In this document: positions 43,188 through 49,330 of the stretch, piece by piece
Position numbering within the stretch: position 1 is the first letter of the stretch
Layout: each line of letters opens with the position of its first letter
NCBI GenBank assembly: GCA_029945625.1
Contig: JAQSCW010000010.1
Span: 1-64,000, forward strand
Length of the DNA stretch: 64,000 nt
Source: a bacterium
Lineage (GTDB): Bacteria > Bacteroidota > Bacteroidia > B-17B0 > Aurantibacillaceae
Reading direction: 5' to 3'
Notes under the pieces: generated by a model
The model's database searches: none
The model's input: the letters and a program-made list of their open reading frames with translations, nothing else
Told to the model about the DNA's origin: nothing
Position numbers and translations under genes: made by a program

Positions 43188-43218
43188 TTTGTGAAATTAA
43201 TAAAATGTAATACCTTTA
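43188..43218 (+). promoter_or_regulatory. metH promoter
   Basis: TTTG at 43188-43191, a 19-base spacer and TACCTTTA at 43211-43218. Spacing is ideal and the -7 box has one mismatch to TAnnTTTG. Transcription would start near 43223, just before the SAM riboswitch. Confidence 0.65.
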
Positions 43219-43237
43219 CGACTCGTTCTTTTAAAAC

Positions 43238-43411
43238 ACTTATTAAGAAAAGCAGAGGGAAACGCCCTGTGAAGCTTTACCAACCCTTATTGAAATGTTA
43301 ACTAATGAATTATAAATGTTAAATGAACTCATTTAAAATTTATCATTCCCAATTTATCATCTCTAAAGAAGGTGGGAATTCGTTCCCGACAGATGTCGGG
43401 AAAAAATAAGT
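43238..43411 (+). ncRNA. SAM-I (S-box) riboswitch upstream of metH
   Basis: Conserved S-box core in order. P1 is ACTTATT (43238-43244) with AATAAGT (43405-43411). It is followed by AAGA, then GCAGAGGGA..GCCCT.TGAAGC (P2 with its kink-turn side, 43252-43274) and CCAACC (43280-43285). After an unusually long AT-rich P3 arm come AAGGTGGGAATTC (43369-43381) and a P4 hairpin TTCCCGAC/GTCGGGAA (43383-43402). It senses S-adenosylmethionine. Placement directly before methionine synthase is the expected logic: SAM present, gene off. Confidence 0.9.
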
Positions 43412-43490
43412 CGGAGACAATTAGTATAAATTTTAAGAATATAAACAATACACTAATCCCTTCCGATATAATACGGAAGGGATTTTTTTT
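43411..43490 (+). terminator. Riboswitch expression platform: terminator and competing antiterminator
   Basis: Terminator: AATCCCTTCCG (43455-43465) pairs perfectly over 11 bp with CGGAAGGGATT (43474-43484), followed by a run of eight T (43483-43490). Antiterminator: TCGGA (43411-43415) with TCCGA (43462-43466) and ATTAG (43420-43424) with CTAAT (43453-43457), which uses the terminator's left arm and touches the P1 3' strand. The T-run ends three bases before the metH ATG. Confidence 0.85.
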
Positions 43491-43493
43491 ATT

Positions 43494-46400
43494 ATGAGCA
43501 ACATCTACAAAGAACTTGAAAAACGCGTATTAGTGATTGATGGGGCCATGGGCACCATGATTCAGCAATATAAACTGGATGAAAAAGATTACCGGGGCAA
43601 ACGCTTTGCCGATTGGCCTAAAGACCTCAAGGGCAACAACGACCTTTTGTCAATCACACAGCCTCACATCATTAAAGCCATTCATAAAGAATATCTGAAG
43701 GCCGGCGCCGACATCATCGAAACTAATACATTCAGCGGCACCACCATTGCCATGGCCGATTATGAGATGGAAGGCCTTGTATATGAATTGAATTTTGAAT
43801 CGGCAAAAATTGCAAGAGAAGCAATAGCAGAATTTAGAACTGAAAACCCCGAATTTGCAGACGTCGCCAAATTTGTGGCCGGTTCCATGGGGCCCACTAC
43901 CAAACTGGCTTCAATGTCGCCCAACGTGAACGATCCCGGATACAGAGCAGTTACATTCAACGACTTGGTCACTGCCTATTCTGAACAAATTCGCGGGCTA
44001 ATAGATGGGGGTGCGGATGTGCTGTTGTTTGAAACTATTACCGACACGCTGAATGTAAAGGCTGCGCTTTTTGCCGCGCAAAACTATTGCCAAAAGATCA
44101 ACAAAAAAATACCGCTGATGGTATCGGGCACTATAACCGATGCCAGCGGAAGAACTTTGTCGGGACAAACCACCGAAGCATTCCTCAATTCGGTATCGCA
44201 CGTCGATCTGCTTAGTATTGGTTTAAATTGTGCTATGGGTGCAAAAGACCTTCGTCCCTATCTGGAAGAACTCTCTGACAAGGCCCCCTTTTATGTGAGT
44301 GCTTATCCAAACGCGGGTTTGCCAAATCAATTCGGGGAATACGATCAAGATGCTCACGAGATGGGACATCAAATCGAGGAATTCCTGAAAGCAGGATTTA
44401 TCAATATTGTAGGAGGATGTTGTGGTACTACCCCCGCTCACATTAAGCGAATCGCCGAATTGGCAAAACTGGCAAAACCGCGCAAAAAACCTGAGGCCGA
44501 TACGCTCATGCATTTGAGCGGACTTGAACCCCTCACGCTCAGGCCCGAAAGTAATTTTCTGAATGTGGGAGAACGTACAAACGTTACCGGTTCCAAAAAA
44601 TTTCTTCGTTTAATCAAAGAAGGACAGTACGAAGAGGCCTTAACTGTTGCCAAAGACCAAGTGGATGGCGGCGCGCAGGTAATTGATGTGAATATGGACG
44701 AGGGGATGCTCGATAGTGAATCTGCCATGACCACTTTCCTCAACCTCATCGCATCAGAGCCTGATATTTCGAGAGTTCCCATTATGATCGACTCCTCAAA
44801 ATGGAGCGTGATAGAAGCAGGTTTAAAATGTGTACAAGGCAAAGCCATCGTAAATTCAATTTCCTTAAAAGAAGGAGAGGAAAAATTTATTGAACAGGCG
44901 CACAAAGTAAAACTATACGGCGCGGCTGTTATTATTATGGCCTTTGATGAAACCGGGCAAGCTGATACCTATCAGAGAAGAATCGACATTTGTAAACGCG
45001 CTTACGACCTTTTGGTGAATACCGTGGACTTCCCCCCACAAGATATTATTTTTGACCCTAACATTTTTCCGGTGGCCACGGGCATGGAAGAACACCGCTT
45101 AAATGCCCTAGACTTTTTTAATGCTACCAAATGGATCAAACATAATTTGCCCCATGCAAAAGTGAGCGGCGGTGTAAGCAATGTGTCATTTTCATTTAGA
45201 GGAAACGATCATGTACGCGAGGCCATTCACTCGGCATTTTTGTTTCATGCAATTAAACACGGCATGGATATGGGCATTGTAAATCCAGCCCAATTAGTTG
45301 TATACGACACCATTGAAAAAGAACTTCTGCAATTGGTAGAAGATGTTTTGCTTAATCGACGTGATGACGCCACAGAAAGACTGGTGAACCATGCCGAAAC
45401 GTTAAAAGGGGTATCACTCGACAAGGCCGAAAAAGATGAAGCCTGGCGAAAAGGAACCGTAGAGGAACGATTGAGTTACGCGCTGGTAAAAGGTCTGGTG
45501 GAGTATATTGATGCGGACACGGAAGAAGCTCGCCTAAAACTGGGCAGGCCCTTGCATGTAATTGAAGGGCCACTTATGGATGGAATGAATGTGGTGGGAG
45601 ATCTGTTTGGTAGCGGCAAGATGTTTTTGCCGCAAGTAGTAAAAAGTGCCAGGGTAATGAAAAAAGCAGTAGCCTATTTAGAACCATATCTTCAGGCCGA
45701 AAAAGAGGCCAATAAGCTGGCAGGCATTGTGGGCGATGGCCGACAGAATGCAGGAAAAATATTAATGGCCACGGTAAAAGGAGATGTTCATGATATTGGA
45801 AAAAATATTGTGGGGGTGGTGTTGGCCTGCAATAACTACGAGATCATCGATTTGGGCGTAATGGTTTCGTGCGATAGAATTTTGGAGGAAGCCAAAAAAC
45901 ACGGCGTCGATGTGATTGGGTTGAGTGGACTCATTACTCCTTCGCTCGACGAAATGGTACATGTGGCCAAAGAAATGGAACGACTCAACTTTAAACTCCC
46001 CTTACTAATTGGTGGTGCTACCACTTCAAAAGTTCATACTGCCGTTAAAATTGCCCCGCATTATTCGGGACCTGTTGTGCACGTGAACGACGCCAGTAAA
46101 TCGGTACCGGTGGCCAGTAGTTTAATCTCAAATGAACTCCGCCCTGCTTTTATGGATGAGGTGAACAAAGATTATGTGCGGGTACGCGAACAGAATAAAA
46201 ACGCACAACAACAAAATAAATTCATCAGTCTGGAAGAAGCCAGAAAAAATAAATACCCCATCGATTGGAACAAAACGGAAATTACAAAACCTTCCTTTTT
46301 GGGAAATAGAATATTTACAAATTACGATCTCAAAGAAATTTCTGAATACATCGACTGGACTCCCTTTTTTCACAGTTGGGAAATGAAAGGCTCTTACCCC

Positions 46401-47216
46401 AAAATATTCAATGATGCTGCACGTGGAGAGGAAGCTAAGAAATTATTTGACGATGCTCATAAAATGCTCAACAAGATCATCTCAGAAAAATGGCTGAGTG
46501 CCAATGCGGTGATTGGCATTTATCCGGCTCATGTTGTGAATGACGATGATATAGAAGTGATGGCAGAACCCGGCAAGCCCGCCACGCATCTGTTTCACTC
46601 CATCCGGCAGCAAACAAAAAAACCGGCAGGACAGTATAATGTAGCCCTTTCCGATTTTATTAAGCCTAAAAATAATTCGGGGAATGCTTCTGTTGGGGAT
46701 CCTCTGGATTACATTGGGGCATTCGCTCTTACAACAGGCATTGGGATTGATGAACATGTTGCGCGCTTTGAGAAAGATCATGATGATTACAGCGCTATTA
46801 TGTTGAAGGCTGTCGCCGATCGCTTAGCGGAAGCCTTTGCCGAATTGATGCACAAAAAAGTACGCCGCGAATTTTGGGGCTATGCTAAAAACGAAAATTT
46901 CACAAATGCTGAATTAATTAAGGAAGAATATGCCGGTATCCGACCCGCGCCTGGTTATCCCGCGCAGCCCGACCATACTGAGAAATTAACAATTTGGAAT
47001 TTGCTGGATGTTGAAAAAAGTACCGGAATTATTCTTACCGAAAGTCTGGCCATGGTGCCTACGGCAGCCGTTAGCGGTTTGTATTTTGGTCACCCCGACT
47101 CACATTATTTTGGTATAGGAAAGATTACCAAAGAACAAGTGGCAGATTACGCAAAACGTAAACGCATGGAGTTTTCGGATGCTGAAAGATGGCTTGGTCC
47201 TGCTTTAGGATACTAA
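43494..47216 (+). CDS. metH: Cobalamin-dependent methionine synthase, full length
   Basis: 1240-residue four-module enzyme that transfers a methyl group from methyltetrahydrofolate to homocysteine through cobalamin. The homocysteine domain (about 1-325) has zinc cysteines in GGCCGT (C309, C310). The pterin domain (about 345-620) includes [11 protein letters not shown]. The cap and B12-binding domains (about 650-890) have DVHDIGKN with axial H766. The C-terminal SAM-binding reactivation domain (about 900-1235) has [12 protein letters not shown]. All four are present in one chain. Controlled by the S-box riboswitch upstream. Confidence 0.97.
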
Positions 47217-47316: not shown

Positions 47317-47706
47317 ATGAAAGAATTTGACACTCCTGCCTTTAGAATGATCGTTCATGATAATTTACTAAAAGAAGTAAAGGTAAAGCGCGGCGTGACA
47401 TACTCTGAAAAGGATGTGTGGGAATCAAGAGATCTTTCTTTGGCGTATATACCCGGGGCTAAATTTTTTGTATTATTTGAGGGTGAAGAAAACAGCTCCG
47501 TGTCTGCCGCCGCCAGAAGTGCCGCTGCTACTGAAGAATACTACCAATACGTGGCGGCTCTGGCCCTTTTTGGCAACCGAATGCTAGAGTCCATTATGGG
47601 CAATCTATTCTTGAAAATTAACAAGCCCAAGGTTCCCACGCGTTTTTTTGATAACCGGGAGCAGGCCATCGAATGGCTAAAACAGAAAATGATCTCCTTG
47701 AAATAA
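47317..47706 (+). CDS. STAS/SEC14-like (DUF7793-type) small protein, copy B
   Basis: 129-residue cytoplasmic protein related to the gene at 24819-25199 by its C-terminal block (GNLFLKINKPKVPTRFF, then EQAIEWLKQ). The N-terminal half differs but has the same beta-alpha order. Promoter box TACCTTTG at 47293-47300, with TTTG at 47267-47270, supports independent expression with a short leader. Function unknown; sits alone between metH and purH. Confidence 0.78.
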   Translation: MKEFDTPAFRMIVHDNLLKEVKVKRGVTYSEKDVWESRDLSLAYIPGAKFFVLFEGEENSSVSAAARSAAATEEYYQYVAALALFGNRMLESIMGNLFLKINKPKVPTRFFDNREQAIEWLKQKMISLK

Positions 47707-47803: not shown

Positions 47804-49330
47804 ATGCAAAATTCAAAATCCATCAATAGCGCGCTCATCTCTGTTTACTACAAAGATCATTTAGAGCCCATCATTCAAAAATTACACTCCCTAGGCGTAA
47901 AATTGTACAGCACCGGGGGCACTTTTTCGTTTATTGAGAAATTAAACATTCCGGTTACCAGTGTTGATTCAGTAACCAAGTACCCCGAAATTTTTGGTGG
48001 AAGAGTGAAGACCCTGCATCCTGCCATATTTGGGGGGATTCTGAACAGAAGGGACAATCCTTCGGACAAAAAAGAAAAAGAGCAACACCGTATTCCTGAC
48101 ATCGATTTGGTGATTGTGGATCTCTACCCCTTTGAAGAAACCGTTGCGGCCAAAGCATCTGAAGAAAACACCATCGAAAAAATAGACATTGGGGGAATTT
48201 CTCTGATACGTGCGGCCGCAAAAAACTTTAATGACGTAGTAATTGTTTCCTCACGCGACCATTATTCAGAATTACTTCATTTGTTGGAATCTAAAAACGG
48301 TAAGTCAGACTTAGCCGATCGCAAACACTTTGCTGCCAAGGCTTTTGCTACCTCATCGCATTATGACGCTGCCATTTTTAATTATTTTAATCAAACCGAA
48401 AATATTGCAGAATTTAAGCAGAGCGTTCAAAAAAGTCAGACGCTTCGCTACGGAGAAAATCCTCATCAAAAAGGGATCTTTTACGGAGACCTGGATAAAA
48501 TGTTCACAAAACTCAATGGCAAAGAACTTTCTTATAATAATTTGCTGGATGTGGACGCCGCGGTAGCGTTGATGTCGGATTTCACTGAGCCCACTTTTGC
48601 GATCTTAAAACACAATAATGCGTGTGGTGTGGCTTCAAGAGCCACTATTCATAAGGCTTATGTGGACGCATTGGCGGCAGATCCCGTTTCTGCTTTCGGA
48701 GGAATTTTAATTGCCAACCGTGAAATTGATCTGGCAACAGCGGGTGAAGTGAACAAATTGTTTTGCGAAGTAGTCATTGCTCCTTCCTTCTCTGCCGATG
48801 CCTTGAATCTGCTGAAATCAAAACCAAACCGTATTCTTTTAATCCAAAACAAAGTTGAACTAAGCAAGACCTCTTTCAGAACGCTCCTCAATGGTGTGAT
48901 TGAACAAGACAAAGATCTTAAAACAGAATCGGCCTTAGACATAAAACCAGCCACAACTTTAACGCCTAGCGACTCTGAAATCAAAGATCTTTTGTTTGCA
49001 AACAAATTAGTAAAGCATACAAAATCGAACACCATTGTGTTCGCCAAAAACGGTCAATTATTGGCAAGTGGAACGGGACAAACTTCCCGTGTTGACGCAT
49101 TAAAACAAGCCATCACCAAAGCACAAAGTTTTGGGTTCGATCTTAAAGGTGCGGTAATGGCCAGTGATGCATTTTTTCCTTTTCCCGATTGTGTAGAGAT
49201 AGCGCACGGGGTGGGAATTACAGCGGTTATCCAGCCCGGGGGTTCAATAAAAGACAAAGAAAGTATTGAATACTGCAATGCTCACAACATGAGTATGGTG
49301 ATGACGGGGGTTAGACATTTTAAGCACTAG
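47804..49330 (+). CDS. purH: Bifunctional AICAR transformylase / IMP cyclohydrolase
   Basis: 508-residue enzyme for the last two steps of IMP synthesis. The N-terminal IMP cyclohydrolase domain (about 1-145) has STGGTFSFIEK, VKTLHPAIFGGIL and the DLVIVDLYPFE stretch. The transformylase domain follows, with RYGENPHQKG, LKHNNACGVA (catalytic Lys-His) and ASDAFFPFPDCVE. It ends MVMTGVRHFKH, the normal C-terminus. The following secreted protein gene begins five bases after the stop. Confidence 0.97.
   Translation: MQNSKSINSALISVYYKDHLEPIIQKLHSLGVKLYSTGGTFSFIEKLNIPVTSVDSVTKYPEIFGGRVKTLHPAIFGGILNRRDNPSDKKEKEQHRIPDIDLVIVDLYPFEETVAAKASEENTIEKIDIGGISLIRAAAKNFNDVVIVSSRDHYSELLHLLESKNGKSDLADRKHFAAKAFATSSHYDAAIFNYFNQTENIAEFKQSVQKSQTLRYGENPHQKGIFYGDLDKMFTKLNGKELSYNNLLDVDAAVALMSDFTEPTFAILKHNNACGVASRATIHKAYVDALAADPVSAFGGILIANREIDLATAGEVNKLFCEVVIAPSFSADALNLLKSKPNRILLIQNKVELSKTSFRTLLNGVIEQDKDLKTESALDIKPATTLTPSDSEIKDLLFANKLVKHTKSNTIVFAKNGQLLASGTGQTSRVDALKQAITKAQSFGFDLKGAVMASDAFFPFPDCVEIAHGVGITAVIQPGGSIKDKESIEYCNAHNMSMVMTGVRHFKH

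Follow-up and report, generated by a model that had tools for sequence, protein, structure and literature searches.

The window, a stretch of 64,000 nucleotides of bacterial DNA, carries metH, the gene for cobalamin-dependent methionine synthase, preceded by a leader in which a SAM-I (S-box) aptamer is followed by an intrinsic terminator (Table 1). The gene is full length, as the original prediction had claimed: its product contains five Pfam domains and scores 1741 bits with TIGR02082 and 2067 bits with NF007024. The distance from the end of the aptamer to the metH start is 81 bases. A small ORF after metH (47317-47706) matches DUF7793 and a SpoIIAA-like family, the latter just over the cut-off, and the next gene, at 47804, encodes a purH-type bienzyme. 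Among the related loci, other genes may stand between the riboswitch and metH. For example, L034, L035, L037, L038, and L046 have a gene in this place that by eye resembles a SAM-dependent methyltransferase, and L048 and L054 have an AlbA_2-like gene, likewise named by eye.

Table 1. Features of the metH leader and its gene (positions in the window)
Feature	Position	Strand	Description or basis
Promoter candidate, Bacteroidota type	43189-43218	+	TTG 43189-43191, 19-base gap, TACCTTTA 43211-43218
Conserved heptamer GTTCTTT	43225-43231	+	Just upstream of P1, near expected transcription start
P1	43238-43244 / 43405-43411	+	7 pairs; covariance-model alignment and pair listing
P2	43249-43253 / 43274-43278	+	5 pairs; covariance-model alignment and pair listing
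P2b	43257-43259 / 43265-43267	+	3 pairs
Kink-turn internal loop	Between P2 and P2b, within 43249-43278	+	Aligned to Rfam consensus
Pseudoknot	L2 AACG 43261-43264 with J3/4 CGUU 43381-43384	+	Four Watson-Crick pairs
P3	43280-43375	+	Base 43280-43288 / 43366-43375, consensus-like
P3 distal arm	43287-43367 (81 bases)	+	AT-rich imperfect hairpin, weak period-7 character
P4 hairpin	43384-43401	+	7 pairs
Antiterminator	43410-43415 / 43462-43467 and 43420-43425 / 43452-43457	+	Compensatory change in 32 genus leaders; energies
Intrinsic terminator	43455-43465 / 43474-43484, T run 43483-43490	+	11 pairs, 6 G-C; plain terminator scan
metH, cobalamin-dependent methionine synthase	43494-47216	+	1240 aa, full length; Pfam and NCBIfam

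The leader matches the Rfam SAM family (RF00162) on the plus strand at 43237-43412 with 61.0 bits against a curated cut-off of 44.4 bits, and all model positions from 1 to 108 are covered. An S-box core with its elements in order had been predicted here, and the full-model match bears this out; the covariance-model search proposed along with the prediction proved significant (E 1.1e-11). SAM is the sole family to reach its gathering score in the Rfam scan of the window, and this match is the single one for SAM in the 4.1-Mb genome. The stretch 43237-43493 folds with a z of -4.7, none of 200 shuffles being equally stable. All four helices of the four-way junction, P1 to P4, pair in the window sequence, and P3 starts as the consensus does, with CC:GG, two tertiary positions, a further CC:GG, a two-A bulge, and CUU:AAG. 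Both strands of the pseudoknot deviate from the consensus letters of Rfam and still pair at all four positions; AACG and CGUU stand at what we take to be the positions that pair in the T. tengcongensis crystal structure. Given the RF00162 match, the pairing pseudoknot, the conserved antiterminator described below, and the metH gene, the leader element is a genuine SAM-I riboswitch with a transcription terminator, of a known kind. The binding of SAM and the direction of the response are inferred.

SAM-I riboswitches are found in 56 of 60 genomes (the window's own and 59 relatives), all 56 over the cut-off; in a wider sample of 295 genomes from the class, 210 have one. Their upstream regions also share motifs. 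Promoters of the Bacteroidota type have the consensus TAnnTTTG, from which TACCTTTA departs at the last base. Of the 50 loci that are not classed as metX/metY-type, 42 have a TAnn(n)TTTG motif no more than 60 bases ahead of P1, and in 36 of those 42 the distance is 14-20 bases. The heptamer GTTCTTT, which lies outside the Rfam model and 8-16 bases upstream of P1, is present in 42 of the same 50 loci (for the loci from other families, in 9 of 15) and in 0 of the 18 metX/metY-type SAM-I loci.

The metX/metY-type loci represent a second type of SAM-I riboswitch, placed before metX/metY-like genes (neighbour names given by eye only) in the relatives' loci L016, L017, L019, L021, L023, L025, L027-L029, L061, L064-L068, L070, and L071. 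A short Cys-rich ORF of 33-46 codons, for which the scan required at least three Cys, lies at most 15 bases after the aptamer in 17 of the 18 loci of this type, and many of these ORFs end in a run like CCMCCCCCMC. The ORF has the look of a leader peptide for cysteine/methionine that is stacked on the SAM riboswitch; PMC8632094 already describes a uORF of cysteine codons ahead of cysS. Searched in whole genomes, the cysteine-run pattern matches at many places where the last triplets are at odds with the leader peptide, and nowhere in the window's genome. In 16 of the 18 loci a protein of 72-80 aa with a GG motif is encoded after the Cys-rich ORF, about 200-290 bases past the aptamer; two of its sequences, compared with Pfam and NCBIfam, hit no model at E 0.01. 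The window's genome contains no second SAM-I match of the metX/metY type, and a single search for a MetX homologue, run without a positive control, found none in it.

The P3 arm of the window comprises 83 bases between CAACC and AAGGTG, in keeping with the long AT-rich arm of about 85 bases originally predicted. Within the genus the arm is 63-86 bases long in 28 members and 11-39 bases in five others; the P3 statistics refer to the 28 genus arms of at least 60 bases, the shorter arms (5 of 33) being left out, and L034, from another family, is excluded from the genus sets for both P3 and the terminator platform. When one arm from another family is counted with the 28, the highest self-match among lags 2-12 falls at lag 7 in 25 of these 29 long forms and elsewhere in four. 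The genus arms have a mean lag-7 match of 0.53 with a joint z of 20 against dinucleotide shuffles, a value that overstates their independence because the arms partly share ancestry; lags other than 7 reach a z of 3.3 at most. Likewise, a strict tract test was passed by 16 of the 28 arms at lag 7, by one at lag 8, and by none at lags 4, 5, 10, and 11. The arms also fold back on themselves, with a mean z of -3.4 against dinucleotide shuffles (below -1 in 27/28 and below -2 in 23/28). The window's own arm, which has a period-14 array at 43329-43360, is among the weaker periodic cases: its lag-7 z is only 2.0 and it fails the strict test, like 11 others of the 28. Its fold has a z of -3.0.

The repeats of these arms are of several types, given roughly and by eye as AATGTTA, AATTAAA, GAAGTAA, GTTTCTT, and one more. 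Similar periodicity appears outside the genus, where lag 7 was best in all four of the arms of at least 60 bases that were examined, and another lag in four shorter arms (50-54 bases). Among the class matches listed, which are those with the best scores and may under-represent long arms, three forms outside the genus span 172-194 bases, and lag 7 is best in each. The lag-7 z is 5.8 for the G-rich arm of G112 (family f38) and 3.3 for that of G099 (f21); the arm of G301, which nearly duplicates G099 and belongs to the same genus, does not go beyond its shuffles, and for G041 31 of 500 shuffles are as good at some lag. The unrelated repeat types and the G-rich f38 case argue against one inherited sequence. 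A second conserved RNA inside the long P3 was considered and rejected, as the sequence is unconserved in close relatives and no Rfam model but SAM attained its gathering score over the window.

The manner in which the arm changes is best seen between close relatives. For example, L047 and L052 share 98% identity in the flanks of P3 but 56% within the arm (the all-pairs median P3 identity is 52%), and their arms belong to different repeat types. L047 and L049 are likewise 98% identical outside P3, with 95% inside. Over 2000 bases of metH DNA the identity is 86.8% for L047/L052 and 90.8% for L047/L049. Nine pairs have flanks that are at least 85% identical; P3 identity is 42-58% in seven of them, one of which (L041/L055) shows no clear repeat type, and 91-95% in two. 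Repeat types were also placed on a metH tree, a quick one of 33 rows in which 9 of the 30 inner branches are left open, using labels set by eye; four long arms whose type was not clear received no label. The five hand labels, on 24 genomes, require 13 changes on this tree, and label shuffles a mean of 13.75, with as few in 113 of 300. For k-mer clusters of the 28 arms, cut at three levels, the number of changes is 16 with 7 clusters, 11 with 6, and 9 with 3. As the label changes are about as numerous as in the shuffles, inheritance of repeat type is not detectable on this metH tree. We infer that the P3 arm has repeatedly been replaced as a block in this lineage, its ability to fold back being kept. 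On balance we lean slightly towards the broader reading that P3 in the metH SAM-I riboswitches of Bacteroidia is a landing or exchange site, at which unrelated seven-base-repeat hairpins are swapped whole and the aptamer and switch stay intact.

Seven-base repeats are also dispersed in the window's genome. In 464 kb of it there are 11 mostly non-coding lag-7 tracts at 8 sites; other lags gave 2-3 tracts each (4, 5, 8, 10, 11, and 13) or, at the double period of 14, 13 tracts. As an example of these repeats, L162 (contig C10, 5456-5685) holds two adjacent arrays of direct GCCAACT-like units. A search of the whole genome with the window's P3 stretch gives 16 further matches with E no higher than 1, the best with 51.8 (38 bases), 46.4, and 39.2 bits. 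A composition artefact behind these matches was rejected, since the controls reach just 35.6 bits (five shuffles) and 30.1 bits (a neighbouring intergenic stretch); in the 464-kb sample the arm matches no better than its own shuffles, 65 of 300 being as good. The L052 arm matches another place in G018 with 76% identity over about 70 bases (E 2e-6), and hence related tracts exist outside the riboswitch. The idea that seven-base tracts are general in the structured RNAs of the genus was discarded, strict lag-7 tracts being found in 0/38 RNase P RNAs and 0/61 cobalamin-riboswitch RNAs.

The P3 repeats may alternatively arise in place, as the polymerase slips and switches template on the hairpin, rather than by import of dispersed repeats, with the genome-wide repeats as parallel products of the same slippage, and we give this explanation nearly an even chance. 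A survey cited in PMC4679880, as far as it is summarised there, ranks seven-base repeats as the most abundant class in most genomes treated and proposes polymerase slippage. Ten dispersed tracts folded with their flanks had z values from -3.5 to +6.8; only two were below -1 and folded clearly better than shuffles, versus 27 of 28 P3 arms. Thus a ready-made hairpin donor was not found among them, and their poor folding implies either selection for hairpins in the P3 setting or formation of the hairpin on the spot. In favour of slippage, a search for a near-identical donor of an exchanged arm found none. Against slippage speak L047 and L052, whose nearly identical flanks enclose arms of different repeat type, and the L052-like tract elsewhere in G018.

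The arm could also be a functional module, such as a landing site for a protein or RNase or a folding timer, whose repeat type is irrelevant. Its fairly constant length in the 28 genus members and the hairpin folding kept in them are in line with such a role, but the five genus members with arms of 11-39 bases are not, and most of the matches listed in other families are short overall. These short arms imply that the long arm is not needed for the switch, and we regard the module as unlikely. P3 would rather be an outward-pointing, structurally tolerated arm that took up a seven-base-repeat hairpin.

The switch itself is conserved among the relatives. An 11-bp terminator with eight T had been predicted and was recovered as such by the plain scan, the first two T lying inside the stem. 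Over a 1.1-kb region, the scan gave four terminator-like sites versus a mean of 1.2 in shuffles; among the other three sites, one is the same hairpin on the minus strand. Terminator and antiterminator have the left arm of the former in common, and the competing antiterminator that the original prediction placed on this arm fits by its coordinates and is kept with compensatory change in 32 leaders. This set consists of the genus metH leaders, the window included; L015, which is without such a platform, was left out of the count. Position 4 of the antiterminator is paired with the terminator left arm in 32/32 leaders and never mismatched, as G-C in 18, A-U in 12, and G-U in 2. The inner helix has a longest complementary run of 4-7 bases in 32/32 leaders, in several different sequences; the runs of only 4 bases in two leaders could be produced by chance. 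Control might instead be mainly translational, the terminator hairpin blocking the ribosome: the stem ends at 43484, 9 bases before the ATG at 43494, and PMC2258182, where it treats the matter, names translational control as the commoner mode outside Firmicutes. This is improbable, as hairpin and T run recur together across the 32 aligned leaders, several of which have the metH start farther away or another gene first.

Folding energies bear on how the transcriptional switch would choose between its states. The OFF state, with P1 and terminator forced, has -60.1 kcal/mol, the antiterminator fold (ON) -51.5 kcal/mol, and a hybrid of P1 with a shortened antiterminator -50.8 kcal/mol. In the folding proposed with the original prediction, P1 forms if forced but is missing from the unconstrained minimum-energy fold (-62.4). 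Before the right arm of the terminator exists, the P1 state (including the shortened antiterminator) and the full antiterminator differ by less than 1 kcal/mol. P1 and antiterminator overlap only in G43410 and U43411 in the window, and by 0-4 bases across the 32 leaders. With a two-base overlap and a hybrid so near the ON state, the energies do not make P1 and antiterminator exclusive; as P1 can coexist with most of the antiterminator in the energy model, the choice between states is presumably kinetic. That SAM control has been lost and termination depends chiefly on other factors, for instance coupling to the ribosome or NusG, might be read from the small overlap and the near-equal energies but is very improbable, since the aptamer retains its full-model score and pseudoknot and the antiterminator pairing is kept by compensatory change in the 32 leaders, neither of which would be expected after such a loss.

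The switch most likely shuts metH off when SAM is plentiful. Bound SAM would keep P1 closed and leave the left arm of the terminator free, and RNA polymerase would halt within the T run, just short of the start codon of metH. At low SAM, the terminator left arm would be captured by the 3' end of P1 together with the adjoining bases (GUCGGA...AUUAGU), and metH would be transcribed. Taken together, the metH leader is very probably a SAM-I riboswitch that acts by transcription attenuation, with a structurally tolerated P3 arm that is replaced as a block in this lineage. The P3 arms form a series in which the same riboswitch, before the same gene, carries unrelated hairpins in one arm in sister species. 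Such a series could reveal which parts of a riboswitch are freely changeable and how short repeats make their way into functional RNAs; if the exchange-site reading is true, it would be a natural record of repeats colonising a working RNA.

Short repeats have been met in other structured or intergenic settings. The STRR units of cyanobacteria are reportedly seven bases long. They occur inside cyanobacterial RNase P RNA (Vioque 1997, cited in PMC2858038) and are alike in being short tandem repeats within a structured RNA; in contrast, the host here is a riboswitch of Bacteroidota, the repeats form a hairpin arm, and the RNase P RNAs of the genus have none. Direct repeats of the heptamer TAACTGA are described, in the part of PMC4679880 that concerns them, from Beggiatoaceae, Cyanobacteria, and five Bacteroidetes. 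These are similarly dispersed intergenic seven-base repeats, some of them in Bacteroidetes, but the account gives one fixed heptamer that in the main species usually stands immediately ahead of a start codon; riboswitches are not mentioned by that word in the text of PMC4679880. A literature search over titles and the starts of abstracts, with thin coverage of subscription papers, did not find seven-base repeats in a riboswitch.

The riboswitch agrees with SAM-I (RF00162) in its aptamer core, four helices, pseudoknot, terminator platform, and methionine gene, and differs by the 83-base P3 arm, replaceable among relatives, and by the minimal overlap of P1 and antiterminator. SAM-I in Bacteroidetes is already published, as the relevant part of PMC2258182 records. 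The same paper (Barrick and Breaker, 2007), in what it says of insertions, reports long, variable, non-conserved stem-loops at fixed sites of riboswitches. The P3 arm resembles them as a long non-conserved stem-loop outside the core at a fixed site; compared with the insertions as described there, it consists of seven-base repeats of several unrelated types, and switches that are otherwise nearly identical differ by exchange of the whole block. The novelty, modest but real, lies in the block exchange of the P3 arm and not in the riboswitch, which is of an ordinary kind.
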